Shown here in pieces: positions 13,458 to 32,255 of a stretch of DNA of 39,281 bases. The notes beneath the pieces were generated by a model. It had not been told where the DNA came from. It worked only from the letters and a program-made list of their open reading frames with translations, and made no database searches. How positions within the stretch are numbered: position 1 is the stretch's first letter; the number at the start of each line of letters is the position of its first letter. The translations under genes and the position numbers were made by a program. Source of the stretch: Comamonadaceae bacterium (GTDB lineage: Bacteria; Pseudomonadota; Gammaproteobacteria; Burkholderiales; Burkholderiaceae_C); the NCBI GenBank assembly GCA_947446885.1, contig CANFHZ010000011.1, positions 1 to 39,281 of the forward strand. Direction: 5' to 3'.

Positions 13458-14336
13458 GTGCGCGCACTCAACGGACAGCTGTGTTCCATCCCTAGCAAAA
13501 ACGGCCTCCTGAGTGCCTACGTCAAAGGGCATGGCAAGCCCATTCTGTTGGTTCACTCCGTCAATGCTGCAGCAAGTGCGGCCGAAGTTCGACCGCTATT
13601 CGATTTGCTGAGCCGGAACCGTACGGTGTATGCCATCGATCTGCCGGGTTACGGCACATCGGAACGCTCAGACCGCCTGTACACACCCCGCCTCATGACC
13701 GATGCGATTGGGGACTTAGTCACCTACATCCGCGCGCAGCATGGCGACGCAGCCATTGACGCCATGGCTGCATCCTTATCGTGTGAATTTCTGGCGCGTG
13801 CGGCAATGGAACAACCCGCAAATTTCCGTACCCTGACCTTGGTCAGTCCCACGGGTATGTCCGGCCTCAAGTTGCGCCAAGCACAAGAGGGAAGCACCTA
13901 TGGGCAGACCTGGTTACGGTCTATTTTGAAAGGCCCCGGATGGGGCCGCCTTTTGTTTAAGGGCCTCACGCGACCAGGGGTGATTCGCTATTTTCTGAAC
14001 AAGACCTGGGGCTCCCGCGCGATTGATGAAGCCATGTACCAGTATGCGGTCTGGACTACGCAACAGCCCGGTGCGGAACATGCGCCCTTGTGCTTTTTAT
14101 CGGCCCAGATGTTCAGCGCCGACATCACCACGGTCTACGACCGGCTTCGCCTACCGGTCTGGATGAGCCACGGTGTACGCGGCGATTTTGTTGACTACCG
14201 GGGAAAGCAACGATTTGCCGCGTGCGGCAACTGGCGCTTTACCGTCTTTGACTCTGGCGCACTTCCCTATTTTGAACATCCAGAGGCATTTGGGGAAACG
14301 ATGCTGGATTTCCTCGGCTCACCGCTTGCCGGTTGA
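13458..14336 (+). CDS. Alpha/beta hydrolase
   Basis: ILLVHSVNAAASAAEVRPLFDLLSRNRTVYAIDLPGYGTSERS; GTG start chosen inside ORF 13353..14336. Confidence 0.7.
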   Translation: MRALNGQLCSIPSKNGLLSAYVKGHGKPILLVHSVNAAASAAEVRPLFDLLSRNRTVYAIDLPGYGTSERSDRLYTPRLMTDAIGDLVTYIRAQHGDAAIDAMAASLSCEFLARAAMEQPANFRTLTLVSPTGMSGLKLRQAQEGSTYGQTWLRSILKGPGWGRLLFKGLTRPGVIRYFLNKTWGSRAIDEAMYQYAVWTTQQPGAEHAPLCFLSAQMFSADITTVYDRLRLPVWMSHGVRGDFVDYRGKQRFAACGNWRFTVFDSGALPYFEHPEAFGETMLDFLGSPLAG

Positions 14337-14389
14337 ATTGGCGTTGAAAAAATCACTTCCATAGGCGTACTTTTTCTCTCTTCTGCAAC

Positions 14390-14827
14390 ATGATCCCTGT
14401 ACAACATCCCTTACCGCGTATTGCCCAATTGCTGGGCTATGCCGGTCTTGTTCCGTTCCTCGCGCTTGCTGCAATGGCTTTGGCGCTGACGCCCCCAGAT
14501 CAAGCCCTGGCAGCGTTTGCCTTGCGCGCGTATGCGGTGACCATCGTCAGCTTTCTGGGCGCAATCCATTGGGGATTCGCCATGCGGCAAAGTCCCGCTG
14601 ACACCCTGCTCTTCGGTTGGGGGGTTGCACCCAGCTTGCTCGGATGGATGTCGCTCGTGGTACTGCCCGCCTTTGGTTCGCTGCTGCTTGCCGCGACGCT
14701 CTGGCTATGCTTTTTGGTCGACCGCCGGGTCTATCCCCGGTATGGATTACAAGAATGGCTGCGTATGCGCCTGGTACTAACCGCGGTTGCAAGCGCTGCG
14801 TGTGTGATCAGCAGCAGCATTTTCTAG
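14390..14827 (+). CDS. DUF3429 membrane protein
   Basis: LLGYAGLVPFLALAAMAL...SFLGAIHWGFAM typical motif; multiple TM segments. Confidence 0.75.
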   Translation: MIPVQHPLPRIAQLLGYAGLVPFLALAAMALALTPPDQALAAFALRAYAVTIVSFLGAIHWGFAMRQSPADTLLFGWGVAPSLLGWMSLVVLPAFGSLLLAATLWLCFLVDRRVYPRYGLQEWLRMRLVLTAVASAACVISSSIF

Positions 14828-14888
14828 CACCAGACCTGCGGCCTATACCTTGCTGCTGGGCAGTGAATGCCCTTTGCCCTCTATCCCA

Positions 14889-16484
14889 TCAAGCGAGCGC
14901 CTGCTCCTCCACCACCGAAGTGCTGGCCGCCGGTGTGCGTATCAAATAGTCAAATGCACTGAGCGCCGCTTTCGCGCCCTCCCCCGCAGCAATGACAATC
15001 TGCTTGTAAGGAACCGTGGTCACATCGCCTGCTGCGAATACGCCGGCGACATTGGTGTGGCACTTCGCATCGACCACGATTTCACCGTACTTGCTCAACG
15101 CAAGGGTGTTCTTGAGAAATTCGGTATTGGGGACCAAGCCGATTTGCACGAACACGCCCTCCAGCGCCACATCCTGCACGAGGCCGGTAGCCCGGTCTTT
15201 GTAACGCAAACCGTTGACCTTTTGACCATCACCGGTGATCTCAGTGGTCTGCGCGTTGGCACGCACGCTCACATTGGGCAGGCTTGTGAGCTTACTCACC
15301 AGCACCGCGTCGGCCTTGAGCGCATCAGCGAACTCAAGCAAGGTCACGTGCTGCACCAGCCCAGCCAAATCGATGGCCGCCTCAACGCCGGAGTTACCGC
15401 CGCCGATCACCGCCACGCGCTTGCCCTTGAACAAGGGGCCATCGCAATGCGGGCAATAGGCCACGCCTCTGTTTTTGTACGTGTCTTCGCCCGGCACATT
15501 GATGTTGCGCCAGCGCGCACCAGTGGACACCACCACACTGCGCGCACGCAGCACACCACCGTTTTCCATGTGCACCTGCACCAAGCCACCGGGCTGCGTC
15601 GCAGGAACGATTTTTTCCGCACGCTGCAAGTTCATGATGTCCACCTCATAGTGCCGAACCTGGCTTTCCAGTGCAGCCGCAAATTGAGGACCATCGGTTT
15701 CCAGCACCGAAATGTAGTTTTCGATGGCCATGGTGTCGTTGGTTTGGCCGCCAAAGCGCTCTGCAGCCAAGCCCACGCGAATACCCTTGCGCGCGGCATA
15801 GACGGCAGCTGCCGCGCCCGCAGGGCCGCCACCCACAATCAGCATGTCGAAAGGGTCTTTCGCGTTTAATTTTTGGGCCTCACGCCCCTCTGCGTTGACA
15901 TCCAGGCGCGCCAGAATTTCTTCCAAACTCATGCGCCCGGCGCCAAAAACCTGGTCATTCATGTAGACCATGGGCACGGCCATCACCTGGCGTGCTTCGA
16001 CTTCGGCCTGGTTCAAACCACCGTCAATCACCGTGGTCTCAATCTTGGGGTTGTACACGGCCATCAAGGTCGCTGCCTGCACCACGTCGGGACAGTTATG
16101 GCACGACAAGGACATATAGACCTCGAATTTCAAATGGGCGTCCAGTCCTTTGATCTGCTCCAGCACTTGCGGTTCCACCTTGGGCGGATGACCGCCTGTC
16201 CACAACAAGGCCAGAACCAGTGATGTGAACTCGTGGCCCAGCGGAATGGCTGCAAAACACACTCCGCGCGATTCACCTTCTTTGGCCACCACAAAGGACG
16301 GCTTGCGCGCGTCCGTGCCCGACTCATCCACACGCACCTTGTCCGAGAGCGATGCGATGTCGTGCAAGAGTTCTCGCAACTCCATGCTCTTTTCGCTGCC
16401 ATCCAATGTGGCAATCAAACGAATGGGGGAGCGCAAGTTTTGCAAATAGGCTTGCAACTGGATTTTCATGGCAGCGTCGAGCAT
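14889..16484 (-). CDS. ahpF: Alkyl hydroperoxide reductase subunit F
   Basis: 531 aa; N-terminal [10 protein letters not shown] and [32 protein letters not shown]. Confidence 0.95.
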
Positions 16485-17135: not shown

Positions 17136-17384
17136 GGAAAATTCCTTTGCTTGGTTGATGAAAACTATCGAATGGGAAAAACCCATTAATCATGATCATA
17201 ACCAAGACTAGGGTTAACCCTGATCACTTATTCAAATAGCACGTATTGAGGAAATCTAAGAAAGGCTGCGTAGTCGCACCTTGTCGCTTCATCCCGTTTG
17301 CTGTGACCAGCGAGGAACCAGGGCAGAACTCGTGTGGCATTTGTCATCATCCCAGGGCAATCAACTGCCCGGCAAACAAGAACG

Positions 17385-17556
17385 ACCTACAAAGCCGTGT
17401 GAGTCCGTCAAGTGCTTGATCTGAAACCATGGCGCACCCATCTTGATACCCAATGCTTTTGCCTCGTTTGAGCGTGCTATGGCACAGCCGTCGTTGTTAC
17501 TGAGCACAACGGCTGCAATACCGTTCAGACTTGGCCGAAAGATGCGTTCGCAACTC
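17385..17556 (-). pseudogene. umuC: umuC internal fragment (continuation of the split umuC; 3' part missing)
   Basis: Minus translation [54 protein letters not shown] then diverges to a stop; matches residues following FYVSC of UmuC. Confidence 0.9.
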
Positions 17557-17565
17557 TTCTGAATG
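17551..17565. other. Predicted left recombination junction of element (core + terminal inverted repeat)
   Basis: Minus strand CATTCAGAA-GAGTTG followed by umuC; the 6-bp core and 9-bp arm are matched at 30202-30216. Confidence 0.7.
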
Positions 17566-17655
17566 ACCCTAACAGTTAGTAGGTCTTATCTGCATTAGGT
17601 TTAGGCCGATTTTGACCGCTAACAGTTTTTCGCAACCTTAGCCACGCCCAATGTT

Positions 17656-17931
17656 TTATTTGATATAGGACTTGAGCACTGCCACGACCTCTTCAAGATC
17701 ACGACCGCGCTGAGCCGCATCGGTGGCCTCCGAGCCCAAGTGATCGCGCAAATGGTGCTCCAGAACTTCGGACATCAAGCCATTGACCGCACCACGAATC
17801 GCAGCGATCTGCTGAAGGATGGCCGCGCAATCGGCCTCTGACTCCAACGCCTTCTCCAAGGCGTCGGACTGGCCGCGAATGCGGCGCACGCGGGTGAGCA
17901 GTTTGGCCTTGCCTTTGATCGTGTGAGCCAT
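17656..17931 (-). CDS. rcnR: Metal-sensing transcriptional repressor, RcnR/FrmR (CsoR) family
   Basis: MAHTIKGKAKLLTRVRRIRGQSDALEKALESEADCAAILQQIAAIRGAVNGLMSEVLEHHLRDH; divergent from rcnA. Confidence 0.85.
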   Translation of the reverse strand: MAHTIKGKAKLLTRVRRIRGQSDALEKALESEADCAAILQQIAAIRGAVNGLMSEVLEHHLRDHLGSEATDAAQRGRDLEEVVAVLKSYIK

Positions 17932-17963
17932 ATGTCATTTTCCTTTTTTTTGTCAATATATCA

Positions 17964-17978
17964 TACTGGGGTATAGTA
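17964..17978. promoter_or_regulatory. Candidate RcnR operator TACTGGGGTATAGTA
   Basis: TACT-N7-AGTA with G-tract, in the rcnR-rcnA intergenic region; resembles the known RcnR site architecture TACT-G6-N-AGTA. Confidence 0.65.
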
Positions 17979-18024
17979 TCAATCCTGCCGCTAATCAAGC
18001 GACGCTATCTTCCAGAATCACCCC

Positions 18025-19182
18025 ATGCCACCCATCGCAGAACTCATTCAACAGGGCGCCACGAACTTGTGGATCTTCATTCCAACGGCCATTTTGCTGG
18101 GCGCATTGCATGGCCTGGAGCCTGGGCACTCCAAAACCATGATGGCGTCGTTCATCATCGCAGTTAAAGGCTCGGTCGGCCAAGCCGCACTTTTGGGACT
18201 CTGCGCTGCATTTTCCCATTCGTTGATCGTGTGGGCCCTTGCCGCTATTGCCTTGAAGTTCGGAAACGAATTGATTGCAGAACAGGCTGAACCCTATCTC
18301 ATGCTTCTGTCCGCTGTGGTGGTCATCGGCGTATCCATCTGGATGTTTATGCGCACGCGCCGCGATGAGTTGGCCGCAAAAGCTCAACAACATGCGCCAC
18401 ACGGCGGCAAGATCATCAACACAGGGCACGGAATTGTTGAACTTGAAGTCTTTGAGACAGGTGTTCCTCCCCGGTTTCGCGTCCACGCTTACGACAACGC
18501 GATGGCTGTAAAAGGGTTTGATGACCACGATAAGGTTTCTATCGAGACCCTCCGCCCGGACGGGACGAAGCAAGCCTTTGAACTCAAAGTCTCTGGCATC
18601 TATCTGGAATCCCTTCAGGAGATTCCCGAACCCCATGAATTTGAGGCGGTTGTGAGCATGGGGCATGGTGACCACATCCATCGCTTTGAAGTCAGTTTTT
18701 CTGAGGACGATCATGACCACGCACATGGAGACCATCATCATGGTCACCACCACCATGATGTTGCCGATGACTTACTGGGAGGCGATGGGACGTATCAGGA
18801 TGCCCATGAGCGCGCCCATGCCGAGGACATCAAGCGCCGGTTCGTTGGTCAGAAGGTGACCACAGGGCAGATTGCGATGTTTGGCTTGACAGGTGGCCTG
18901 GTGCCTTGCCCCGCATCGGTGACCATACTGATGATCTGCCTGCACTTGAAGCGTTTCACGCTGGGTGCCGTCATGGTTGCCAGCTTCAGCCTGGGGTTGG
19001 CTATTTCTTTGGTGAGCGTAGGAGTGATCGCCGCGTGGGGCGCGCGCCAAGTTGGTAAACGGATTGGCAACGGCCGGTTCAGTGACTTGGCACGCAAGAT
19101 GCCCTATTTTTCCAGCGGCTTGATGGCTTTAGTTGCGGTTCTCATGGGCTTCCAAGCTTTGATGCAGCTCACCGTGAACTGA
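18025..19182 (+). CDS. rcnA: Nickel/cobalt efflux protein RcnA
   Basis: Multi-TM NicO-family protein: HGLEPGHSKTMMASF, His-rich loop DDHDHAHGDHHHGHHHHD, TGGLVPCPASVTILM. Confidence 0.92.
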   Translation: MPPIAELIQQGATNLWIFIPTAILLGALHGLEPGHSKTMMASFIIAVKGSVGQAALLGLCAAFSHSLIVWALAAIALKFGNELIAEQAEPYLMLLSAVVVIGVSIWMFMRTRRDELAAKAQQHAPHGGKIINTGHGIVELEVFETGVPPRFRVHAYDNAMAVKGFDDHDKVSIETLRPDGTKQAFELKVSGIYLESLQEIPEPHEFEAVVSMGHGDHIHRFEVSFSEDDHDHAHGDHHHGHHHHDVADDLLGGDGTYQDAHERAHAEDIKRRFVGQKVTTGQIAMFGLTGGLVPCPASVTILMICLHLKRFTLGAVMVASFSLGLAISLVSVGVIAAWGARQVGKRIGNGRFSDLARKMPYFSSGLMALVAVLMGFQALMQLTVN

Positions 19183-19339
19183 ATATTTTGCCTAATACTC
19201 GGTCCGTCACCGGGGAGTAGCTGGCTTCATATAAATCGAAGGAGCTTGCGTCAACACACTTGATCAGCATGATCACGGTGAAAGCGGCTTTCACCGATAT
19301 GATGAATCGACTCAACCTTCAACACTGGGACTGACACCT

Positions 19340-19675
19340 TTGAATTTCGCAAAAACCACTTTGCTGTTCGTCGCGACTGCGATTGCGGAGATCTTGGGTT
19401 GCTACTTGCCGTGGCTTGTCATCAAGCAGGATAAAACGGCTTGGTTGTTGATTCCTGCGGCACTCTCGCTTGCACTCTTTGCTTTGCTGCTGACTCTTCA
19501 CCCCAGTGCGGCAGGCAGAACCTATGCCGCCTACGGAGGTGTGTATATCGCGGTCGCTCTGGTGTGGCTTCGTGTTGTGGATGGTGTCTCGCCGACGCCA
19601 TGGGACGTGCTCGGCGCCTGCATCGCGCTTGCTGGAATGTCCGTGATTGTTTTGCAGCCAGTCGTTAAGACCTAG
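19340..19675 (+). CDS. YnfA-family (UPF0060) membrane protein
   Basis: 111 aa, four [13 protein letters not shown] and [24 protein letters not shown]. Confidence 0.85.
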
Positions 19676-19896
19676 GCGCGTGCCGCAGGCAAATCGCAGA
19701 ACTTAGTGGTGTATTGGGGCGCAAGTCTCTCTTGCCGGACGGGCCAATCGCGTTCGACGCGTTAGTGTATTTGACGGTAACGACATTCCTCTGAAACCCG
19801 CAACCTTGGCATTTCGGCTGGACCACAAACTTAGATCTTTCACATTGCAGTTTTTTCGCCCCTTGGGAGCCTCCAAAGCAAGCTTTGATTTGCATA

Positions 19897-19920
19897 ATAT
19901 TCTAACATTCGTTAGAATAT
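19897..19920. promoter_or_regulatory. Candidate autoregulatory operator ATATTCTAAC-ATTC-GTTAGAATAT
   Basis: Perfect 10-bp inverted repeat with 4-bp spacer ending 4 bp before the ATG of the ArsR-rhodanese gene. Confidence 0.75.
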
Positions 19921-19924
19921 CAGA

Positions 19925-20596
19925 ATGGAAAACCGCGCAATTAAAGACATCCTCTACGAACAAGTCGCCCGCATTGGCAAAGCCGCATCGAGCCCCAAGC
20001 GGCTTGAGTTGCTGGAGCTGCTGGCCCAAGGTGAGAATTCTGTCGAAGCCTTGGCCGAGCTGCTCTCTATCGAAGTCAAGCTTGCCAGCGCGCATTTGAA
20101 AGTCCTCCGAGAGGCCCGCTTGGTTGCTTCGCGCAAAGAGGGCAAGTTCGTCCACTACCGGCTGAGCGGCTCTGACGTTGCAAACCTTTGGGTATCCATG
20201 CGCGAAGTCGCCCAAGAGCACCTGGTCGAACTCCAAGTCGCGCTCGACCAGATCGCCTCCGCCCCCGACAAGCTGGCCAGCGTCAGCCGCAAAGAGTTCA
20301 TGGCACAAGCCAAGCGCGGCGAAATCGTTGTGATCGACGTGCGCCCGCGTGCGGAGTTCGATCATGCCCATCTCCCATTTGCCAGGTCCATGCCTTTGGA
20401 TGAGATAGCAAAGCGCATTGCTGAGTTGCCCAAGGGCGTGGAAATCGTCGCTTACTGCCGCGGCCCCTTCTGCCTGTTTTCGGAAGAAGCGGCTCAGTTG
20501 CTCAAATCCAAAGGCCGCAAGGTCAGCAAGCTTTTGGACGGCGTAGCCGAATGGACATCCGCTGGCATGCCGATTGAAACCAAGGAATCCCCATGA
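19925..20596 (+). CDS. ArsR-family HTH regulator fused to a rhodanese domain
   Basis: ArsR wHTH (SSPKRLELLELLAQGENSVEALAELLSIEVKLASAHLKVLREARLVASRKEGKFVHYRL) then rhodanese (VIDVRPRAEFDHAHLPFA...YCRGPFCLFSEEAAQLL). Confidence 0.9.
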   Translation: MENRAIKDILYEQVARIGKAASSPKRLELLELLAQGENSVEALAELLSIEVKLASAHLKVLREARLVASRKEGKFVHYRLSGSDVANLWVSMREVAQEHLVELQVALDQIASAPDKLASVSRKEFMAQAKRGEIVVIDVRPRAEFDHAHLPFARSMPLDEIAKRIAELPKGVEIVAYCRGPFCLFSEEAAQLLKSKGRKVSKLLDGVAEWTSAGMPIETKESP

Positions 20597-20943
20597 GCTC
20601 CATTCTTTCTGTCGTCAACGACGCGCCCTATGGCAACGAACGCGCCTACAACGCGCTGCGCCTAGCGGGCTCCCTCGCCGCCAAGGAGGACGTTCATGTT
20701 CGTGTGTTCCTGATGGCCGACGCGGTCGGGTGCGCCAAGGATCACCAGAAGGTGCCCGAGGGCTACTACAACACCCAGCTCATGCTCTCCAAGGTCATCC
20801 GCAAAGGCGAGGTTGGGCTGTGCGGCACCTGCATGGATGCGCGCGGCCTGGCCGAATCCGAAGTGATCGAGGGCGCCAAGCGCTCTACGCTGGCCCAGCT
20901 CGCCGACTGGACGCTGGAAGCCGACAAAGTTCTCGTTTTTTAA
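20593..20943 (+). CDS. DsrE/DsrF-like sulfur-relay family protein
   Basis: YGNERAYNALRLAGSLA...VRVFLMADAVGCAK...GLCGTCMDARGL; overlaps the upstream stop. Confidence 0.8.
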   Translation: MSSILSVVNDAPYGNERAYNALRLAGSLAAKEDVHVRVFLMADAVGCAKDHQKVPEGYYNTQLMLSKVIRKGEVGLCGTCMDARGLAESEVIEGAKRSTLAQLADWTLEADKVLVF

Positions 20944-20953
20944 GAGGCCAATC

Positions 20954-21684
20954 ATGTTCTTCAAACAACTCCCAACCAAAGAATCTTCACTGTCCTATTT
21001 CTTTGGATGCGCTGGCCACGCCATCGCCGCTGCTGTCGATGTGGTCGCAGGCGATGAAGACTGGTTCATCGAACAAGCTGCCCAAGCGAACGTGCGCATA
21101 GCCTACGTCATCGACACTCATGTCCATGCTGACCACTACTCCGGAGGCAGGGAATTGGCCAAGCGCATTGGCGCGCACTATTGCCTGCACGAGAGCGCTC
21201 GCACCTTAGTGAAGTTCGACTACGAGCCCTTGGTGGACGGCCAAATGCTTGATTTGGGTAACGTCAAGATCAAAGTCCTGCACACACCGGGTCATACGCT
21301 CGACAGCATGTGCCTGCTGGTGTCGGACGCGCGGCGCGGTCCCGAGCCCTGGTTTGTCATCACGGGTGACACCTTGTTTGTTGGGGCCACTGGGCGCCCA
21401 GACCTGGCGGGGCGCGAGCACGAGATGGCGGGCATGCTTTTCGACAGTTTGGGAGCCAAACTCTTGAGCTTGCCTTTGGAGTGGAGATTTTTCCAGGCCA
21501 TCAAGCGGGCAGCGCCTGCGGTGTGGGCCTGTCTGGCAAACCGTCTTCGACCATTGGTTTTGAGAAGCGTTGGAATCCCTTGTTGGCAATGGATCGCGAC
21601 GCCTTCGTGACCGAACTGACTTCCAACATTCCCGCGCGCCCGGCCAATATGGACCAGATCGTCGCCACCAACATCGCGGCCTGA
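20954..21684 (+). pseudogene. MBL-fold hydrolase (ETHE1/persulfide-dioxygenase-like), frameshifted near 21475
   Basis: VIDTHVHADHYSGG and HTPGHTLDSMCL in frame of ORF 20954..21610; conserved continuation VEIFPGHQAGSACGVGLSGKPSSTIGFEKRWNP in frame of ORF 21481..21684. Confidence 0.8.
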
Positions 21685-21691
21685 TCCTGCT

Positions 21692-22975
21692 ATGGAGTTG
21701 AAGCACGGCATCCGCCACAACAAGAGCCAATTCATTCACCAGCTCTTGCAGGTGTTGTTGGTGGGCCTCACCATTGGCATGACCCGCACGGTCGTGCCTG
21801 CGCTCGCCGAGTCAGACTTTGGTGTGCCCAAGAACTCATTTGTATTGCTGAGCTCTTTCGTGGTTGCCTTTGGCTTGGTCAAGGGGGCCATGAACTTTGT
21901 TGCAGGGCGCCTCTCTGAGCGCATCGGTCGCAAGCAAGTTCTGCTACTGGGGTGGTTGGTCGCACTGCCCATCCCAGTCATGATCTGGTTCGCGCCCAAT
22001 TGGAGTTGGGTCGTTGCAGCTACAGTCCTATTGGGTGTCAACCAGGGACTGACATGGTCGATGACCCAGACTTCCAAGCTCGACATCACACGATTGGAAG
22101 AGCGCGGTCTGACCCTCGGGCTCAACGAGTTCTCTGGCTACGTGGGTGTGGCCCTTGCAGGCATTGCGACGGCCTACATGGCATCGCATTTCGGCGCGCG
22201 GCAAGGAATTCTTATTTTTGGCATGACCGTCATCGTCATCGCCTTGGTTCTAACGCAGCTATGGGTCAAGGACACTCTTCCATGGGCCAAGGCAGAAGCG
22301 GCAAAGCACGCTCCAGGCACAACGCAAACTCTGCGCCCCCGTTATCCCCAGGGTGTTTCCAGCAACCCTTCCACTAAGGAGATTTTCACGCTCATGAGCT
22401 GGCGGGATAAACGCATGATGGCCTTGAGTCAGGCGGGACTGGTGGAGAAGTTTGTCGATGCTCTGGTGTGGATTTTTTACCCGGTTTTCCTGTATCAAAA
22501 AGGCGTGAGCCTGCCCAACGTGGGATGGATCATCGGCTTCTACGGCTTCGTCTGGGGCGGCTCGCAACTCTTCACCGGCAGGCTTTCAGACCGCGTCGGG
22601 CGACACCGGCTCAACGTCTGGGGCATGTGGATTTGCGGTGCGGGCGTGGCGGCCATGATGCTCGGCGACGGTGTCGCTTGGTGGGCCGCGTCGGCTGCCG
22701 TGTCTGGCTTTGGTATGGCTTTGCTGTATCCCAATCTGTCGGCGGCGGTTGCAGACATCTCGCATCCGTCCTGGCGCGGATCTGCCATCGGCATTTATCG
22801 CTTCTGGCGCGATCTAGGCTATGGCATCGGTGCGCTCGGTCTGGGTCTGGCTGCGCATTTCACAGGCCAGATGCAATCGGCTTTTTGGTTCGTCGCCGTA
22901 TCTATGTTCGCCTCCGGCGCCTTGCTCTGGTGGCTGGGCGAGGAGACGCATCCCCGGCTGAACCCCGCGCAATGA
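21692..22975 (+). CDS. MFS transporter
   Basis: 12-TM-type protein, GRLSERIGRKQVLLLG and GRLSDRVGRHRLNVWG motifs. Confidence 0.85.
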   Translation: MELKHGIRHNKSQFIHQLLQVLLVGLTIGMTRTVVPALAESDFGVPKNSFVLLSSFVVAFGLVKGAMNFVAGRLSERIGRKQVLLLGWLVALPIPVMIWFAPNWSWVVAATVLLGVNQGLTWSMTQTSKLDITRLEERGLTLGLNEFSGYVGVALAGIATAYMASHFGARQGILIFGMTVIVIALVLTQLWVKDTLPWAKAEAAKHAPGTTQTLRPRYPQGVSSNPSTKEIFTLMSWRDKRMMALSQAGLVEKFVDALVWIFYPVFLYQKGVSLPNVGWIIGFYGFVWGGSQLFTGRLSDRVGRHRLNVWGMWICGAGVAAMMLGDGVAWWAASAAVSGFGMALLYPNLSAAVADISHPSWRGSAIGIYRFWRDLGYGIGALGLGLAAHFTGQMQSAFWFVAVSMFASGALLWWLGEETHPRLNPAQ

Positions 22976-22997
22976 ATTTACTTCAACAGAAAGCACC

Positions 22998-23459
22998 ATG
23001 AAACTTCGCTCGACAATCACGCTCGCCTTGGCATGTGCCACCTTGGCCTTCACTCCCGCCGTATGGGCGGACAAAGCTCAGGCCATTGACGAAATGGAGG
23101 CCTACTTGGAGTTTGTGGATTATGGCGGCGGGGTGATCTTCGCCGAGCAAATCCCCAAAGATGACTGGAAGAAGTTTTTGGTCATCGACGCCCGCGATGC
23201 CGCTCAGTTCGCAAAGAGCCACATACCGGGGGCCATCAACATCGAATGGCGCCAAGTCCTCGCCAAGCGCGCCTCGATCCCGAAGGACAAGCCCGTGCTG
23301 ATCTATTGCAACAGTGGATCACTATCGGCGCAGGCCGGTTTTGCCATGCGGGTGGCCGGATGGGACAACCTGCGCATCTTGCAAGGCGGCTTTGACGAGT
23401 GGCGGACAAAGGGTGGTTTCGATGCTGCCTCGAAGACCACGACTCCAGCCACGCACTGA
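22998..23459 (+). CDS. Exported rhodanese-like protein
   Basis: Signal peptide then VIDARDAAQFAKSHIPGAINIEW...VLIYCNSGSLSAQAGFAMRVAGW. Confidence 0.85.
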   Translation: MKLRSTITLALACATLAFTPAVWADKAQAIDEMEAYLEFVDYGGGVIFAEQIPKDDWKKFLVIDARDAAQFAKSHIPGAINIEWRQVLAKRASIPKDKPVLIYCNSGSLSAQAGFAMRVAGWDNLRILQGGFDEWRTKGGFDAASKTTTPATH

Positions 23460-23469
23460 TTTTTCCCGG

Positions 23470-24768
23470 CTAGGCCTTAGCAACGGGCATGTCACTCCAA
23501 TTGGTTGTGTATTGCGGTGTGCGGCGCTCCTGTCGCATTGACCAGTCACTCTGAGTGTGCTGGCGGGCCGCGCTCCCGACATGGACTGTGCCTCGGCCAT
23601 ATCGGCCATTTAACGCATCCATGGCCATCATCAATTTCGTGCGGTCGCGGGTCTCGACGGGTTCGAGTTCCAACTCACCTTGCGTCAGGGCATCGTTGGC
23701 CAAATCCATCAACATGACTCCTGCCTTTGATAGCCGGTAACCCGGTTGGTAAATTTGCCTGACTCCAGCCACTGCTGACTGCACCAGCAAACGACTATCC
23801 GCCGTGGGTCGCCGAAGTGGAACAACGACGCTCTTCGAGAAACGTGGACCGGGTCGGAACGGCGAAGTGTGCGCAAATACAAGTATCTGTCCGGCTTGGC
23901 TGGATTGACGTCGCAACTTTTCAGCAGCACGACTTGCGAATTCGCTGATCGCCTCGATGAGATCCGGGAGCTCGGTGATCGGGTGCCCAAAACTCCGGGT
24001 GCAGGCGATTTGCTGCTTGGCGGGAGGTGCATCTTCCAATCCAATGCAGGGTTGACCTTGAAGTTCACGCACGGTGCGCTCCAACACAACACCCCAGCGA
24101 CCGCGAACCATGGACGGGCTCAGCCGGGTCAAGTCGAGGACCGTATTCACCCCCGCGTCCCGCAGTTGCTGTCCGATGCGGCGACCGACACCCCAAACTC
24201 TACCCACTTCGGTGGCAGCGAACAAGGCATCCAAATCGGATGTGGTCAGAGCTTCCAGGTTGCAAACCGTCGCCATGCACTCAGGGTAGCTACCGGGCTT
24301 GCGGTCAGCCGTTTTTGCGATGTGATTTGCAAGCTTAGCCAACGTCTTTGTCGGTCCAATGCCGATGCCGCAGGGTATGCCGGTCCATTGAAGAATTCGC
24401 GAGCGAATCGCCCATGACCGTTTGGTGAGGTCGCCACGAACGCCATCAAGCCCTATAAACGACTCGTCAATGCTGTAGATCTCCTGCGTTGGCCCCAGTC
24501 CCGCCGCAATGCTCATCATCCGATTTGACATGTCGCCATAGAGGGCGAAGTTTGCGGAAAGCGCAATTAGTCCTGCCTCTTCTTCCAGGTGCCGTATCTC
24601 ATGCCAGGGCTGCCCCATCTTGATGCCGAGGGCCTTGGCCTCGTTGCTGCGCGCTATGGCGCAACCGTCATTATTGGAAAGCGAAACGACTGGTCGACCA
24701 TTCAAACTGGGGCGGAACACGCGCTCGCAGCTGACATAAAAGTTCGACGCGTCAATCAAGGCAAGCAT
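23470..24768 (-). CDS. umuC: Y-family DNA polymerase UmuC (complete, cargo copy)
   Basis: [52 protein letters not shown]...[10 protein letters not shown]; start 4 bp after the upstream stop codon. Confidence 0.92.
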
Positions 24769-24772
24769 GTGA

Positions 24773-25192
24773 TTACCTTGAGGCGATCGTCGGGGTTGCA
24801 AAGGACACGACCTTGCCTTTTACTGTCTCTTCGTATACGGCGAGCTTGCTCAAAAGGGTTAAGTTGATCGAGGCCAGTTTCGCAGTCTCATGACGCAAAC
24901 GTTCAACTTCGGCGCGCAGGTCGCGGTTGCGCTCTTTCTCTTTGATCAGGGCTTCATGCTTCGCGTCCCGCTGCAATCGGGTAGATTTCCCAACGACACC
25001 ACGGATTCTCTCGGCGATGTCGGGGTAGGTGTTGTGGATCAGCGCAGGGGTGACCTCCGCCGCTTTGGCGACCGCCGAGATGCTGACCTTTTCCCCCGAA
25101 TGTTGGACCCGATCAATGGCCTCTCTGAGGCGCTTTTCCGTCAGCTTGCGGCTTCTGGTGGCGGCTGATCCGCTCGATGCTGATGGACTCAT
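24773..25192 (-). CDS. TnpC/DUF6262-like transposition accessory protein
   Basis: 139 aa helical HTH-like protein ([50 protein letters not shown]...) in the position of Tn554 tnpC. Confidence 0.65.
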
Positions 25193-25204
25193 GTTCAGTG
25201 ACTT

Positions 25205-27019
25205 TCAAATGATTGGATCGGCGGTCCCGCCATTCGCCGTCACGCCAAAGTCTGCGATCACTTTGGCCGACAGCGCAAGATCGCGGCGAATGCGCGCGTT
25301 GGCGACTGGCCCCAAGTCGTCCAGATCCAGCATTTCCCGATGCTGCTCATGGATGCCTTGCCACATGGCGATGTGCTCTTCGTCGATGACCGAGTTCTTG
25401 CAATCCACACATCGGGTGCTTTCATAAAGGCCGGCGCCACCGCAACCTGAGTCCTGTGCAATGCACCAACCATGTCCCGTTGCGCGAATGTTGATCTGCA
25501 TGGCCGTGCTGGCCACAAGTCGCTCGCGGTCAGGCACGGCGCTTGCCCTCATTTCAAGGATTTTCCGGCCAGCGCCGCCGCTCAGGCGCTGATCCGGACT
25601 GCTCCAGCTCTCCAACAGATCCTTCTTGATGTCGAAATACTCGGTCAGAATGTCTTCGTAAAGGGCAGGATCCTGAGCCGGGTTCGAGGCATAGAGCTGG
25701 GACATGCTGATGCTCGAATGCTTGAACTGCCATTTGAGAAACACCAGCGATTGGCGCCCCATCCTGGACTCCACAAAGGTTCTGGCGTAAGTGCGACGAC
25801 ATTGGTGGGGACTGAGTTTCCACTCCTGCCCAGCCTTACTGGCCAGACGCAACATGGCCACGCGCGATGCCACACCACTCAATGCGGTGATCTGGTTGTA
25901 TTTGCCATAGATCACCCCCAGGAAGACCCGCTGCACATCCCCTCTGGCTTGATTGAGTCGCTTGACCAGATCCCTGCGTGCTGCGGCATACCTCATTTGA
26001 GCGATGGATGCTTCAAGCGCCTGAATCTCCACTTTGAGAGCGGCGCGCAATGGTTCGGAGTAGCGCTCCAGGACCTCAACGACTTTGAGCGTCATCGGAG
26101 GCACCATGTATTCAACACGGCCTTTTCCAGTCTTGTGCTCAACCGAGGTGACCCAGCAATATTCGACTCCGTCGCGCAGCTCGCGCCGACCCGCTCCCAC
26201 CTCGATGCCGATCGCCTCATCATTGCGCATTCCCGATGTGATGGAGAGCAGGTAAAGGCACGCATCGCGCAAGTCGCGCATGGGTTCAGTGGACGGGCCA
26301 AGGGCGCCTATGTCGCGCTGTCTGAGCAAATTTTCCGCCTGGTTGAATATGCGCTCACAATGAAGAAACAGCGCGCTTTGCACCTCTCGTGGAATCACGG
26401 GCGTTTTACCCACGCCCAATCCCGCCGACGATCTGATCTCATGGCCCATAACGCCACAGTAGGACGCAAATGGAATTTCACCCCATGGATATTGACTGGG
26501 TGGCTCATGCAGGTGATCCCGAAAGACCCACGCCAAGTCGACAATTTCAAGTCTGGATTTGATCCCCCTTGGCCGAAGGCCTTCTTCCTTGCACGACTGG
26601 CGGTAGGTCGACAGGTGCAGTGGCTTGATCTCATCGAAGGATTCAACACCATGCTGTGCCAGCCATCGAAGGAGCGGGCCCGCGCTAACTGCGGCAATAA
26701 AAATAGTTCTGGCAATCGCAGCCTTGTAGCCCGGCCGACCTTCCTTGAACCATGCAAAAAATGCGGCTTTTGCGTCCTTGAGAAGTGCTGGCGGCACGTC
26801 CACGGGCCAGACGATGGTTTTCATGGACTCTGGAACGTTGGACTGCTCGAAGTAAGGGGTCAAATCCCACCTCGCATCGTCAAAGCGACTGAGCACATAC
26901 TTATGCCCATGGTCATCGATCACTTCGCTTACCACCGCGTGGGTTAGATCGGAAGGTCTGACATGGTGCTGTGTGGCGAGAATGGCCAAGTTATCCAGCA
27001 TAGGCTCCCCCGTTCGCAT
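25205..27019 (-). CDS. Tyrosine recombinase/integrase (third of trio) with C-terminal Cys-rich region
   Basis: TSGMRNDEAIGIEV; LSPHQCRRTYARTFV; FKHSSISMSQLYA; C-terminal C..C..CVDCKNS. Confidence 0.85.
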   Translation of the reverse strand: MRTGEPMLDNLAILATQHHVRPSDLTHAVVSEVIDDHGHKYVLSRFDDARWDLTPYFEQSNVPESMKTIVWPVDVPPALLKDAKAAFFAWFKEGRPGYKAAIARTIFIAAVSAGPLLRWLAQHGVESFDEIKPLHLSTYRQSCKEEGLRPRGIKSRLEIVDLAWVFRDHLHEPPSQYPWGEIPFASYCGVMGHEIRSSAGLGVGKTPVIPREVQSALFLHCERIFNQAENLLRQRDIGALGPSTEPMRDLRDACLYLLSITSGMRNDEAIGIEVGAGRRELRDGVEYCWVTSVEHKTGKGRVEYMVPPMTLKVVEVLERYSEPLRAALKVEIQALEASIAQMRYAAARRDLVKRLNQARGDVQRVFLGVIYGKYNQITALSGVASRVAMLRLASKAGQEWKLSPHQCRRTYARTFVESRMGRQSLVFLKWQFKHSSISMSQLYASNPAQDPALYEDILTEYFDIKKDLLESWSSPDQRLSGGAGRKILEMRASAVPDRERLVASTAMQINIRATGHGWCIAQDSGCGGAGLYESTRCVDCKNSVIDEEHIAMWQGIHEQHREMLDLDDLGPVANARIRRDLALSAKVIADFGVTANGGTADPII

Positions 27020-28658
27020 GCGTGACGGCCCTCATACGCGCCGCCCAGAATGGATGTGGCTTCGTGCTGGCCAAAGACTTTGCTTCCTCCACAACAGAGC
27101 GGGCGAACTTCGCAGCGGTGAATCGATCGATCAGCGCCATCAATTCACGTTTGTGGTCGCGCCAAGGCTCCATGTCTGGTCCAACCATGTAGTCAATTTC
27201 AGATTGAAGAAACAGTTGGAAGCTGAACAAGCGGTGCAAGTCCTTGACGCTCCCTACCACCACATAGGTCGGACAGGTCAGGCATTCGGTAAAACGGTCG
27301 CAGTGGTCAACGCCATTTTTGGGCGCGCGATTTCCATCCAAGGAGCTTGCGCATCTCCCAACGGGCGTGTTTTGAACGGTCTTTCTAATGGACACCGGCA
27401 TGTTGGATTTCACAGCCTCGCTGCCACGCAAAATCTCCGGCAAGGCCAGCCCAACAAAGCGCGCCGCATCAACCTTCATGTCTTCAGTCAGGCTAAGGTA
27501 GTGTTGATCTGCCACATGTGGGGAATGACCGATGGCGGCAGCTACCGCAATCAAATCGCCATCGCTGAGCTTCCAAAGCTTGGCCTCCATGGTCTTGCGC
27601 AGGCGATTCGGGGTTGGTTCCAATGGTTTTCCGTCGTCGCCAAGCAACCCATGCCGTGAGACAAATTTCCTGATCCCAACTCTCAAGGTGCTTTCGCCCA
27701 GCGCCAACAAGTCCCCCTGGACTTTTCGTGATCGGGATCGATACAGCCATATCCGATCTCGGATTTTGGGTGGAGCTTCTGCGCATAGGTGTTCCGTCCT
27801 AGCGATCACCCCTCGCAACACGGCAACGCCGTCCATGGGCACAACGGTTGTGCCCAGGTTGCCATCAGATTGACGCATGGGGTTTGCTTGCTGGCCTTTT
27901 CCACGCCGCTTGAAGGTCTGCATCACCACCATGTTGGGAACGAATGGATTTGGCGACAGACAATCCCGTGTGGCTTCGAGCAAAGGAGTGGTGTTGATTC
28001 CTGTGCGCAACGCGATCACCAGAAATGCCACGGCCAGCGCTTCGGAATCGGGACCACTGAATTCACTGCGGTGGATCGCGACCAAGTCCATTTTCAACGC
28101 TGCTGCCAAGCGAAGGATTTCCGTATTCGACAACGCTTTGGCGCTATGGCGATTTGCCGCCTTATCGCTGAAGGCCTTAACCGGAAACAGCCTCTCGACA
28201 TCATTCGGACCCAGCCCAAGATTGCAAATGGCAATCAGCATCGGCTTTAGATGAGCGTAATTTGTGCGAGCGCTCGTTTTGGCGGGATACCTGCGGGTGA
28301 GCCAGGCTACAAAGCCATTTATGTGCTCCGGCCGCATGTGTTTGGGGTCGGCAGGTCCTTTCGATGTAATCAAAAAGTCGAGCCATCTGGGCCAGCCGGA
28401 ACCGGCATAGTTGAGGATTGTTTTCCGCGCAACCGTTCCAGAATCAGCAACCGATCGCAACGCGGCAAGACCAGCCCACACCCACGCGTCAATGCCTCTG
28501 CCCAAATAGTCCTTGTAGTCCACCCTCCTGCTGGATGTCGCATCGACTTCGAGCTCGAATGCGGGACCGTCTGCGAGCAAGGTCGCCGAGGGGTCCGTTT
28601 GTGGCTGCGGGTTGCCAGAGTGTGCTGACGACACGCGGTAGGACTTTGGCTTTCTCAT
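26991..28658 (-). CDS. Tyrosine recombinase/integrase (second of trio)
   Basis: ALRTGINTTPLLEATRDCL; TPNRLRKTMEAKLW; AAAIGHSPHVADQHYLSL; ATGA overlap with upstream gene. Confidence 0.8.
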   Translation of the reverse strand: MRKPKSYRVSSAHSGNPQPQTDPSATLLADGPAFELEVDATSSRRVDYKDYLGRGIDAWVWAGLAALRSVADSGTVARKTILNYAGSGWPRWLDFLITSKGPADPKHMRPEHINGFVAWLTRRYPAKTSARTNYAHLKPMLIAICNLGLGPNDVERLFPVKAFSDKAANRHSAKALSNTEILRLAAALKMDLVAIHRSEFSGPDSEALAVAFLVIALRTGINTTPLLEATRDCLSPNPFVPNMVVMQTFKRRGKGQQANPMRQSDGNLGTTVVPMDGVAVLRGVIARTEHLCAEAPPKIRDRIWLYRSRSRKVQGDLLALGESTLRVGIRKFVSRHGLLGDDGKPLEPTPNRLRKTMEAKLWKLSDGDLIAVAAAIGHSPHVADQHYLSLTEDMKVDAARFVGLALPEILRGSEAVKSNMPVSIRKTVQNTPVGRCASSLDGNRAPKNGVDHCDRFTECLTCPTYVVVGSVKDLHRLFSFQLFLQSEIDYMVGPDMEPWRDHKRELMALIDRFTAAKFARSVVEEAKSLASTKPHPFWAARMRAVTHANGGAYAG

Positions 28659-29806
28659 GCAGCAGTCCCATCGCCAAGGATGCCATCGACAAAGTCCTCG
28701 TGAGCGAGCACAAGCTGCGCTTCCAACTGATTGATCAGGTGCAGATATTCGGCGGTGGTCTGAACGTCCGAGTGGCCCAATCGATCCCGCACATACAACA
28801 GCGGTTCGCCCATGAATGATGGATTCTTCCGAAGCGCTGCCAAGGTGTAGGTGGCATAGGTGTGGCGCAGCATGTGGGCCGTGACTGGGAACCCCACTTT
28901 TTTGGATAGTTCACCGAAGAGTCCCACTACGCTAGTTCTGGCCATTTCAGAACCGTATGCCGTCAATACCAGAGCGTCGGGTTCACCCCCACCACGGGTT
29001 TTTCGCAGCTCGCGTTCCAAATTCTTATAGGCATTGAGTTCTTCCATCAGCCGCCATGGAACGTCCACCGCTCGAGGGCGCTCAAATTTGATCGACAAAT
29101 CTTGCGGGCTCAAATCCACGCGTATCACCTGTCCCGCAACAAGATCTTTTCGTCCTGCTGGGTCGAACACGTATTTCGCCGGGAATGTCCGCGCCTCGCA
29201 TGATCGCAGTCCGGATCGCAGCATCAACTCGAATAGGAGTCGATGGCTTGGGTTGTGCAGGTGTAGACGGCAAACCTGAACTTGGTGATTGGTGAGGAAC
29301 TTGATGGGCGAGCGGTATTCACGGAGCATTACGGTTGCGCGTTCAACCGTTGACCCGCCTGTTTTCACATGCCCAAGCATTCCGTGTTTGCCATGCGCTC
29401 GGATCTGTCGATAGGAGAAGGGCAAACTTGCGATGTATCCCCTCTGGCATGCCCATTCATAGAAACGAACAACCAGGGCGAGTCGTTTGTTGATGGTTCT
29501 TGGCGCGAGCTTCAGTTCACCGGCCGACCAATCTCGATAACGACTCAGAGGCGATGCGCCTACTGGCGCATTGGTTTGATCCCATGCCAACCCGTTGGCG
29601 TTCAGGAAGGCAAAATAGTCGTAGAGGCGTCTGCCAACTGCTTCCCAGGTCAACTTGCTGCGCGTCGAACCGCTGTCAAGCAAGGCGTGCAAGAGAAAGT
29701 TCTGGGCTGGCTGCAATGGCATGCACTCGTCGTCAATCAGCAGAGGAAATCCTTCCATGGGCCTGCCACCGATTTCCAGATCACGAGTCGAGAAGAGCAG
29801 CTTCAT
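28655..29806 (-). CDS. Tyrosine recombinase/integrase (first of trio)
   Basis: RSGLRSCEARTF; VTAHMLRHTYATYTLA; LGHSDVQTTAEYLHL (full R-H-R-H-Y set); start MKLLFSTRDLEIGG with ATGA overlap. Confidence 0.9.
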   Translation of the reverse strand: MKLLFSTRDLEIGGRPMEGFPLLIDDECMPLQPAQNFLLHALLDSGSTRSKLTWEAVGRRLYDYFAFLNANGLAWDQTNAPVGASPLSRYRDWSAGELKLAPRTINKRLALVVRFYEWACQRGYIASLPFSYRQIRAHGKHGMLGHVKTGGSTVERATVMLREYRSPIKFLTNHQVQVCRLHLHNPSHRLLFELMLRSGLRSCEARTFPAKYVFDPAGRKDLVAGQVIRVDLSPQDLSIKFERPRAVDVPWRLMEELNAYKNLERELRKTRGGGEPDALVLTAYGSEMARTSVVGLFGELSKKVGFPVTAHMLRHTYATYTLAALRKNPSFMGEPLLYVRDRLGHSDVQTTAEYLHLINQLEAQLVLAHEDFVDGILGDGTAA

Positions 29807-30099
29807 AGATTGCGTTCCGCAAGCAAACGTGCTGCCTTCTTGAAACTGATGCCAAGCAGGTGCATGGCCAAATCCAGCGCGCCTCCGCCACCGCAATTGG
29901 CTCGGTCGTCCCAAAATTTTGGCCCTGTGCACAGAATTTCAAAGTCATTGCCCGACACAGAAGCATGCCAACGGGAAGACCGCGTGTTGAGCCGAGGCAC
30001 ATAAGACAGATCTTCCTTGGCATAGTCAGCCAGTGCTCTCAGCACCATGGCTGCATCAAGCGAGTGCCAACGGGCCAATTCAGAGTTATCAACAGGCAT
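29803..30099 (-). CDS. Small protein resembling the N-terminal zinc-finger/primase-like domain of DUF3991-type proteins
   Basis: WHASVSGNDFEILCTGPKFWDDRANCGGGGALDLAMHLLGISFKKAARLL; first gene of the recombinase operon. Confidence 0.6.
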   Translation of the reverse strand: MPVDNSELARWHSLDAAMVLRALADYAKEDLSYVPRLNTRSSRWHASVSGNDFEILCTGPKFWDDRANCGGGGALDLAMHLLGISFKKAARLLAERNL

Positions 30100-30201
30100 C
30101 GTCCTCCCCCAGACCCCCACCTGCTACTCGTCTCAAAGAGACGATGAATCCGAAGTCAGGAAGGCAGGAATACATGACTAAATATTACTAACAACTTCAT
30201 A

Positions 30202-30216
30202 CAGTCAGAACAGCTC
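30202..30216. other. Predicted right recombination junction of element (terminal inverted repeat + core)
   Basis: Plus strand CAGTCAGAA-CAGCTC; minus strand ...TATGT-GAGCTG-TTCTGACTG, where umuC homology stops after GAGCTG(T). Confidence 0.7.
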
Positions 30217-30251
30217 ACATAGAAGTTGTTGCCGTCCACCAATGCGTACAC
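30211..30251 (-). pseudogene. umuC: umuC 5' fragment downstream of umuD (host copy, truncated by the element)
   Basis: Minus GTG-initiated MYALVDGNNFYVSC immediately after the umuD stop with AGGAGA upstream. Confidence 0.9.
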
Positions 30252-30263
30252 AAGCGTCTCCTC

Positions 30264-30680
30264 TCAAACATTGAATTGCTTGATGGTGCTGGTGACTACG
30301 CCCCATATCTCAATCGTCTGCCCATCTTTCGGAGTGATGTCAGGGTAGGTGGGGTTGGCAGATTTGAGCTTGATGCGCCCGACGCGCTGGCTCAGAACCT
30401 TCACGGTGAAGTCTCCGTCCACGATGGCGACCACGATGTGGGTGTTGCGCGGTTTGATGGCGCGGTCCACCACCAGGATGTCCCCGTCAAAGATGCCGAC
30501 CTCAGTCATGGAGTGGCCGCTGGCACGAAGAAAATAGGTGGCTTGAGAGTGTTTGATCAGCAGCTGGGCCAGGTCGATGCGCTGTGCTCCCAGATCTTCG
30601 GCTGGCGAGGGAAAACCGGCTTGTACATGGCCGCGAATGAGTGATACCGTTAAGGGAATGTTGGAGGCAAGAACCGGGGC
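30264..30680 (-). CDS. umuD: UmuD-like S24 peptidase (no canonical start codon evident)
   Basis: Minus frame SFDAPVLASNIPLTVSLIRGHVQAGFPSPAEDLGAQRIDLAQLLIKHSQATYFLRASGHSMTEVGIFDGDILVVDRAI...; ORF track shows only the part from internal ATG 30509. Confidence 0.85.
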   Translation of the reverse strand, partial: APVLASNIPLTVSLIRGHVQAGFPSPAEDLGAQRIDLAQLLIKHSQATYFLRASGHSMTEVGIFDGDILVVDRAIKPRNTHIVVAIVDGDFTVKVLSQRVGRIKLKSANPTYPDITPKDGQTIEIWGVVTSTIKQFNV

Positions 30681-30697
30681 GTCGAAAGATTGAAAAT

Positions 30698-30713
30698 CTG
30701 TATATTAATACAG
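30698..30713. promoter_or_regulatory. LexA (SOS) box CTGTATATTAATACAG
   Basis: CTGT-N8-ACAG, 16-bp LexA-type operator directly upstream of umuD. Confidence 0.85.
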
Positions 30714-30998
30714 TATAGTCATCCAAGAGGAAGAAGTGCTGTGTGCAGCCAGTAGTAAGCACTCTAGGGACGGATAAATTTCCCAACGGTCTTTGTGGTG
30801 AAAAATCGGGCTTTAAAGATGCTTTTAATGATCAGCGCTGGCGTGCGGTCGTGGCATAGCCCTTTGTGTGGAGGGTGCGGGGCCGAGCTACTGCTACCTG
30901 AAAAGTGTGGACAAAATCTGAGCTAACGCGCTTACCGGGCGGAAGGAGCCTGTCAGAAATTTTGTGTGTGAGGCATACCATGTCACCAAGGAGCATGT

Positions 30999-32255
30999 AT
31001 GCCGAGCAATACAAGGAAGGCCGCTGCCGCACAGGCGTTGCCAACAATACCCAAAGAACTCATTGACCAGTTTGTCAATGGCCCCATGAGCGCGGAGGCG
31101 GTCAATGCCGCCTCCATGGCCTTCAAGAAGGCGCTGATTGAACGGGCCTTGGGCGCTGAACTCACCCATCACTTGGGTTATGCCCCTGGTGCTGACAAGC
31201 CAGTGGACGCCAGTAACCACCGCAATGGTGCGACGGGCAAGACCGTTCTGACCGAGGACGGCCCCCTGCGCATCGAAGTTCCTCGTGACCGTGCTGGCAG
31301 CTTTGAGCCTTTACTCATCCCCAAGCACGAACGCCGTTTCACCGGCTTTGACGACAAGATCGTGGCCATGTACGCACGTGGCATGACGATGCGCGAGATT
31401 CAGGGATTTTTGGCAGAGCAGTACGCCACGGAGGTCTCCCCGGAGTTCATCAGTTCGGTCACAGACGCGGTGATGTGCGAGGTGACAGCCTGGCAGGCAC
31501 GCCCCCTGGAGCCGATGTATCCGGTGGTCTTCTTTGACGCCTTGCGGGTGAAGATTCGTGAGGATGCGGTGGTACGCAACAAGGCCATCTATCTGGCCCT
31601 GGGCGTGCAGCCTGACGGTACGCGCGACATTCTGGGCCTTTGGATTAAGAACACCGAAGGCGCCAAGTTCTGGATGAAAGTCTTCAACGATCTCAAAACG
31701 CGCGGCGTCAACGACATTCTGATTGCCGTCACCGACGGCCTCAAGGGAATGCAGGAGGCACTGGGTGCGGTGTTCCCGGCCACCACGCTGCAAACCTGCA
31801 TCGTCCATCTGATGCGCAACAGCCTGGACTATGCGAGCTGGAAGGACCGAAAGGCGCTGGCGGCAGCCATCAAGCCCATTTACACAGCGGCCAGTGCCGA
31901 GGCAGCCGTGGGGCAATTGGATGCGTTTGAGGCGGGTCCATGGGGTGCCAAGTTCCCCACCGTAGCGGCAGCCTGGAGGCGCAACTGGGATAAGGTGATT
32001 CCGTTCTTCGCCTTGCCGGCACACATCCGGCGGGTGATCTACACCACCAATGCCATTGAGAGCGTCAATGCCAGGCTGCACAAGATTATCAAAACCCGGG
32101 GGCACTTCCCATCTGACGATGCGGCTTCAAAGTTGATTTGGCTGGCCCTGCGAAACATCACCACCGGTTGGGGGCGTGCCAGCAGAGACTGGAAAGAAGC
32201 GATGAACCAGTTCGCAATCCTCTACGAAGATCGCTTCACCAAAAAAGTCCTTTAA
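30999..32255 (+). CDS. IS256-family transposase
   Basis: Mutator-type transposase: VVFFDALRVKIREDAVVRNKAIYLALGV, AVTDGLKGMQEALGAVFPATTLQTCIVHLMRNS, YTTNAIESVNARL. Confidence 0.95.
   Translation: MPSNTRKAAAAQALPTIPKELIDQFVNGPMSAEAVNAASMAFKKALIERALGAELTHHLGYAPGADKPVDASNHRNGATGKTVLTEDGPLRIEVPRDRAGSFEPLLIPKHERRFTGFDDKIVAMYARGMTMREIQGFLAEQYATEVSPEFISSVTDAVMCEVTAWQARPLEPMYPVVFFDALRVKIREDAVVRNKAIYLALGVQPDGTRDILGLWIKNTEGAKFWMKVFNDLKTRGVNDILIAVTDGLKGMQEALGAVFPATTLQTCIVHLMRNSLDYASWKDRKALAAAIKPIYTAASAEAAVGQLDAFEAGPWGAKFPTVAAAWRRNWDKVIPFFALPAHIRRVIYTTNAIESVNARLHKIIKTRGHFPSDDAASKLIWLALRNITTGWGRASRDWKEAMNQFAILYEDRFTKKVL

Follow-up and report, generated by a model that had tools for sequence, protein, structure and literature searches.

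Elements with three recombinase genes in rulB, a homologue of umuC, were shown experimentally in 2014 to move and integrate, and their authors did not find terminal repeats (PMC4542609). Published work also names umuC as a hotspot for the int-int-hp-hp elements that carry tmexCD-toprJ (PMC8547460, PMC9134201, PMC10654056). Strand-biased circularizing elements (SEs) have been reported only from Gammaproteobacteria, and protein searches found none in Betaproteobacteria (PMC10214605). Here we describe an insert that splits umuC on a 39,281-nt stretch of a Comamonadaceae genome (contig CANFHZ010000011.1; the full stretch is referred to hereafter as the window), which comes from a 161-contig assembly that is 92% complete. 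To judge from its genes and ends, it is probably an integrative element that belongs to the IntA-Tfp-IntB-Srap (SE) class and has the rulB integron-like elements as its sister group. A first-pass annotation of the window had proposed that umuC may be an undescribed integration site; that claim fails because of the rulB and tmexCD-toprJ reports, and elements that insert into umuC, like umuC as a hotspot, are already known.

The split umuC gene and the ends of the insert

Read on the minus strand, umuD gives way to a GTG-initiated umuC, of which codons 1-14 (MYALVDGNNFYVSC, 30251-30211) are present before sequence begins that is not umuC. The host gene picks up again from 17556 on the same strand as CERIFRPSLNG and is also truncated, past about codon 71 (17376). 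The features at the two junctions are:

30698..30713, minus: LexA (SOS) box CTGTATTAATATACAG upstream of umuD; one match to the pattern CTGTATNNATNNACAG, 0.05 expected
30264..30665, minus: umuD, start codon uncertain (NCBIfam NF007621, 151 bits, cut-off 110)
30211..30251, minus: host umuC 5' fragment, GTG start to C14; the last 6 bp (30211-30216, GAGCTG) are the left spacer
30186..30210, minus: left element end, TTCTGA-N12-GTTAGTA, one of the window's two motif matches
17557..17581, plus: right element end, TTCTGA-N12-GTTAGTA, inverted relative to the left end, the other motif match
17376..17556, minus: host umuC 3' fragment, about codons 14-71, then truncated; right spacer GAGTTG at 17551-17556

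The unoccupied site is represented by an unbroken umuD-umuC in a genome of the same genus (G327, loci L022/L033), whose umuD is 97% identical to that of the window. Positions 30211-30721 aligned with this umuD-umuC at 82% and positions 17413-17556 with its umuC at 87%, and the two alignments met with an overlap of exactly 6 bp, GAGYTG. Direct reading and this alignment both bear out what the first-pass annotation had said of the split, namely a GTG-initiated 5' piece with resumption at 17556, and the empty site that it expected in relatives was found, with flanks joining on the 6 bp. Its junction, FYVSC|ER, needs refinement: umuC is split there, but the exact point is ambiguous within the 6-bp spacer, which starts with the end of codon V12 and takes in the first two bases of C14. 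LexA boxes are similarly placed before umuD in L003, L004, L006, L016, L033, L037 and other loci. Just upstream of umuD in the window lies a gene for a Mutator-family (IS256-type) transposase (30999-32255, plus), which breaks synteny on that side.

The motif WTCTGA-N12-GTTAGTA has exactly two matches in the window, at 17557 (plus) and 30210 (minus), where shuffled sequences lead one to expect 0.00, and the insert was therefore bounded at 17557-30210. The resulting length of 12,654 bp agrees with the 12.65 kb of the first-pass annotation, and the one motif pair brackets the recombinases, the metal and sulfur genes and the second umuC, which had all been assigned to a single insertion. The left end of the window is also present in L003-L006 and, in variant form, in elements inserted at codon 34 of umuC, while its right end is near-identical to the right ends of G242, pGRT1 and L052. 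Slightly variant forms of these ends flank the elements of pGRT1, Providencia and G1131, and in G286 and G142 they identify the right end.

The left spacer, GAGCTG, is that of the G327 empty site. The right spacer, GAGTTG, is one base off and still encodes V-S-C. In SEs the right spacer is carried over from the site occupied before (PMC10214605). If that holds here, the V-S-C coding of GAGTTG points to an earlier site that was probably a umuC as well. About 80-105 bp inside the left end there is a palindrome, TCGTCTCTTTGAGACGA (30097-30158, minus), which is conserved, sometimes as one half only, in elements inserted at codons 14, 34 and 103 and is a possible binding site for a regulator or recombinase.

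Recombination genes, recurrence and the target codon

Four genes stand in one direction at the left end of the insert:

28655..29932, minus: gene 1, intA/ginA-like tyrosine recombinase with complete RHRHY (Pfam Phage_integrase; SE IntA E=3e-36; motifs)
26991..28658, minus: gene 2, tfp-like degenerate recombinase-fold protein without the first catalytic Arg (SE Tfp E=1.8e-15; motif scan)
25205..27019, minus: gene 3, intB-like large tyrosine recombinase (Pfam Phage_integrase; SE IntB E=5.4e-33)
24773..25192, minus: gene 4, srap/ginD-like small accessory protein (SE Srap E=6.3e-8)

The profiles of these genes pair one-to-one, and in order, with IntA, Tfp, IntB and Srap of SE-6945 on pSEA1, so that the label 'Tn554-like' given in the first-pass annotation is right only loosely; the four are collinear homologues of the SE genes. 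The first three products have 425, 555 and 604 aa. A Pfam search with gene 2 gave no match, a motif scan located the catalytic residues in gene 3, and homologues of gene 4 are annotated as TetR family. Scanning IMG/VR with gene 1 returned no match.

The same codon-14 left junction was found at five loci: the window, a second locus of the source genome (L003), G242/MERU01000011 (L004), a Rhodoferax metagenome-assembled genome (MAG; L005) and a circular Diaphorobacter plasmid (L006). Recombinase genes thus recur in other genomes beside umuC truncated at codon 14, as had been anticipated, and the two contrary findings that the first-pass annotation had named, a relative lacking intact umuDC and recurrences with other flanks, were not obtained. 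In G242, contig C4 holds the right end, with GAGTTG and intact host umuC codons 15-436 behind it; contigs C4 and C11 overlap at their ends by 66 bp without a mismatch, and the joined element of 28,248 bp has both codon-14 junctions. The second source-genome locus (L003 6015-10224, contig C4 of that genome) carries a second umuD, its protein 98% identical, then umuC codons 1-14 and another codon-14 element, with gene 1 80% identical, that leaves the contig within gene 3. The genome-contig scan yielded two relatives only, and order and class surveys with gene 1 returned almost nothing outside this family; the codon-14 subfamily therefore looks rare. Its elements are few in number, and several of the sequences are MAG-derived.

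On a tree of 27 gene-1 (GinA) sequences, the elements inserted at codon 14, codon 34 and codon ~103 of umuC formed clades with supports of 100/99, 98/95 and 100/99, respectively. The target codon needs the minimum number of changes on this tree, a count as low being reached in 0/200 shuffles. Judged from these sequences, the phylogeny of the gene-1 recombinase predicts which umuC codon is targeted (14, 34 or ~103). The codon ~103 group comprises two loci, L017 (G126, 3-14891) and L054 (G1112, 6111-16244), both at YSIDES; the elements there are inserted in reverse orientation, and their recombinases are distant (about 35% identity). This group falls in a distant clade amid elements inserted elsewhere, and umuC targeting therefore probably arose more than once. 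All three target sites are in conserved polymerase motifs (FYVSCE, SNNDGC and YSIDES), the first of which includes the steric-gate Tyr of UmuC and the last its catalytic carboxylates.

Two further loci touch on this series. A Providencia plasmid, p15793B_69 (L038 13781-20255), has a 5.2-kb element, nearly cargo-free with only the four genes and so minimal by nature, that splits umuC at codon 34. In L053 (G330), recombinases sister to the codon-34 clade are inserted outside umuC without a linked umuC, which makes this element an outlier for a target shift.

The element-borne umuC and the origin of the insert

Directly behind gene 4, in the same direction and beginning 4 nt past its stop, lies a second umuC:

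23470..24768, minus: full-length umuC (umuC2), NF002955 at 426 bits, just below the 431 cut-off

A co-directional umuC occupies the same slot in seven elements, four at codon 14 (the window, L004, L005 and L006) and three at codon 34 (L016, L037 and L052), with a gap from the gene 4 stop of 4 nt in the former and about 21 nt in the latter. L006 alone lacks a full-length copy. The seven UmuCs linked to the recombination (gin) genes group in a single clade that excludes host UmuCs (support 98/97; L006 was entered by its displaced 3' fragment). Pairwise ratios of nonsynonymous to synonymous substitution (dN/dS) were 0.05-0.12, two pairs being saturated at synonymous sites, and by this measure the element-borne umuC is under purifying selection. 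Cargo other than umuC varies from element to element. The first-pass annotation had correctly placed a second umuC inside the insert and missed that it appears to be a conserved fifth gene of the recombination operon, not random cargo. In the source genome, umuC2 is the only intact umuC found.

We propose that the element recombines site-specifically across the 6-bp spacer in umuC codons V12-S13-C14. Circularising or copying the element, with its ends joined as TCAGAA-[6 bp]-TTCTGA, would be the work of the two recombinases together with the degenerate one and the small accessory protein, and integration would put the 6 bp of the target at the left end and the 6 bp of the previous site at the right end. 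Because the element points the same way as umuD and follows its LexA-controlled promoter, the recombinase genes and the umuC that it carries would be read as an extension of the SOS operon. No terminator-like site was found between umuD and gene 1, and the layout suggests one SOS operon that runs from umuD through the recombination genes to the replacement umuC. Since the element umuC would replace the copy destroyed by insertion, UmuD would keep its partner and the host would not be penalised; the remaining cargo (nickel/cobalt exporter, metal repressor, sulfur and metal genes) would be passenger DNA. We have good, though not full, confidence that this is an SOS-linked integrative element that replaces its own target gene.

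Other explanations were weighed. The insert could be an ordinary rulB-type integron-like element or GInt in which a umuC has come to lie behind the recombinases as chance cargo, with no replacement role. Its gene set and end sequences are the same as those of pGRT1-type elements, SOS polymerase genes are often found on plasmids and islands, and Pseudomonas members are without the extra umuC, yet chance does not readily put umuC into one slot in seven elements of two target-site clades, nor yield linked umuCs that form one clade apart from host genes under purifying selection while other cargo is variable; we consider this explanation improbable. It is considerably less probable still that two events placed a recombinase-plus-umuC unit and a separate metal/sulfur island side by side, so that the 12.65 kb would not be one mobile unit. 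A remnant of a umuC 3' end at 19672-19752 does divide the window cargo, and umuC fragments likewise lie between cargo blocks in L006 and G242. Against this, one pair of terminal motifs spans the whole 12,654 bp with no match inside, and the G242, L052, pGRT1 and Providencia elements keep the span from the gin genes to the right end with different cargo. That the split umuC is the artefact of a chimeric assembly, as the 161 contigs of the source genome might allow, is barely credible given that both ends fit the conserved motif with a clean 6-bp overlap. This candidate was rejected, as the same junction is present in independent assemblies, one of them a complete circular plasmid.

Several observations weigh against an element that replaces its target. 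Host umuC is deleted beyond codon 71, so that excision would not restore it and the copy in the window may no longer excise usefully. The codon-14 right end is known only in the window and, via joined contigs, in G242; the right ends of L003 and L005 lie beyond their contigs, and the right-end motif was not found in L006, whose element umuC is also frameshifted at the IDES codons. The lack of another umuC in the source genome rests on a 92%-complete assembly. Among sampled members, Pseudomonas and enterobacterial codon-34 elements persist without an extra umuC, and one codon-34-type insertion left ultraviolet tolerance unreduced (PMC4542609); replacement is therefore not essential to the lifestyle.

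The frameshifted umuC and further umuC pieces of the Diaphorobacter plasmid lie at L006 25167-26469 and 33857-34861 and at L035 19488-20350. What appears to be the original umuC 3' half sits 8.4 kb downstream; most of it is 96-98% like L004. A further umuC fragment comes next, and these pieces separate cargo blocks. One way for such fragments to arise would be that elements nested within element-borne umuC copies and deletions followed.

Recoding of the target was apparent at codon 34. Non-linked umuCs there read SNND (62/63) or SAND (1/63), whereas 4/6 distinct linked umuCs read SSND with a destroyed spacer, namely all three distinct umuCs of codon-34 elements and that of L004/L006 (4/6 against 0/63, Fisher p=1.7e-5, not corrected for relatedness). 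SSND fits self-immunity, but a single inherited change may account for it. The linked umuCs differ from occupied sites at codon 14 by only one or a few bases, and no persuasive recoding was seen at this target, the window element's own. We regard it as a tentative idea that the fifth core gene is a dedicated target replacement recoded against self-landing, which would make a replacement and self-immunity system tied to SOS.

Cargo and relation to known systems

The remaining features of the insert are:

22998..23459, plus: rhodanese (Pfam)
21692..22975, plus: MFS transporter (Pfam)
20954..21610, plus: MBL-fold hydrolase (Pfam)
20593..20943, plus: DsrE/TusD-like protein (Pfam)
19925..20596, plus: ArsR-rhodanese fusion regulator (Pfam)
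19672..19752, minus: remnant of another umuC 3' end (76.5% DNA identity to the L014 umuC fragment, E=6.5e-9; translation)
19340..19675, plus: YnfA/UPF0060 membrane protein (NCBIfam NF002586)
19200..19340, plus: yybP-ykoY Mn2+ riboswitch (Rfam RF00080, 62.7 bits)
18025..19182, plus: NicO nickel/cobalt exporter (NF007454, 341 bits)
17656..17931, minus: FrmR/RcnR-like metal-sensitive repressor (Pfam Trns_repr_metal; NCBIfam below cut-off)

The Mn2+ riboswitch directly precedes the YnfA/UPF0060 gene (19200-19675, plus), a position that is a possible hint that this YnfA handles manganese.

The codon-14 target position and the Burkholderiales subfamily appear to be new, as does a dedicated full-length replacement umuC behind the fourth recombination gene, under purifying selection; new here as well is the indication that recombinase phylogeny predicts the target codon. 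If the proposed role is correct, it would explain how a conserved SOS gene is broken repeatedly without cost, the element's own copy being wired into the same damage-inducible operon. The family, whose termini had been reported as not found, also gains exact ends from this analysis; sequence comparison ties the rulB elements to SEs, and the class now reaches into Betaproteobacteria. Codons 14, 34 and ~103 offer a natural series for target choice by multi-recombinase systems, and umuC-inserted elements also mobilise last-line resistance genes in clinical bacteria.

Among known systems, RIT elements have three recombinases of 315-410 aa, all with the catalytic Tyr, and 34-bp terminal inverted repeats, whereas the window has products of 425/555/604 aa, a fourth gene and different ends. 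The Tn554 family (tnpA-tnpB-tnpC, radC-type target) is set apart by description from the four genes and umuC target found here. The Vibrio cholerae recA genomic island (PMC4405046), also compared by description, is similar in being site-specific in an SOS gene and carrying its own divergent copy, but its target is recA. Again by description, the tmexCD-toprJ int-int-hp-hp elements are likewise recombinase elements with umuC as hotspot and differ in their resistance efflux cargo.

GInts (ginABCD; PMC5385486) share a four-gene recombination operon at one end, site specificity, a 6-nt exchange and cargo that begins directly after the fourth gene (ginD). Those described lie in ABC-transporter or ssb genes, and by description their degenerate recombinase is GinC, whereas in the window it is gene 2 that is missing the first Arg, gene 3 being complete. 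SEs (PMC10214605, PMC9345347), described as circularising in a strand-biased way with no empty site, have four collinear homologous genes, IntA-Tfp-IntB-Srap, at one end and resemble the insert in layout, with imperfect inverted termini and a 6-bp spacer that holds current-site bases at the left and previous-site bases at the right; no conjugation genes are among those recognised. The proteins of SE-6945 are only about 22-23% identical to those of the window, and the members found here are from Burkholderiales, a difference of host range and not a mechanistic criterion.

Of the characterised systems, the rulB integron-like elements (ILE-FH1/FH4/FH5, pGRT1, pUM505 and PAGI-5; Rhodes et al. 2014, PMC4542609) are the nearest relatives. 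They lie at codon 34 in the numbering used here (the GAT point, 123 bp into rulB) and not at codon 14, their recombinases form a clade separate from the codon-14 ones, and sampled Pseudomonas and enterobacterial members are without a full umuC behind gene 4. They share three recombinase-type genes and a small 'TetR' gene at the left end (xerD, two int/rec and tetR-like), co-directional insertion within a umuC homologue, variable cargo and an upstream LexA box. Homologues of the four genes are also present in pUM505 (L048), and the pGRT1 genes (L007) are 58, 38, 53 and 49% identical to those of the window and bounded by the same terminal motif.

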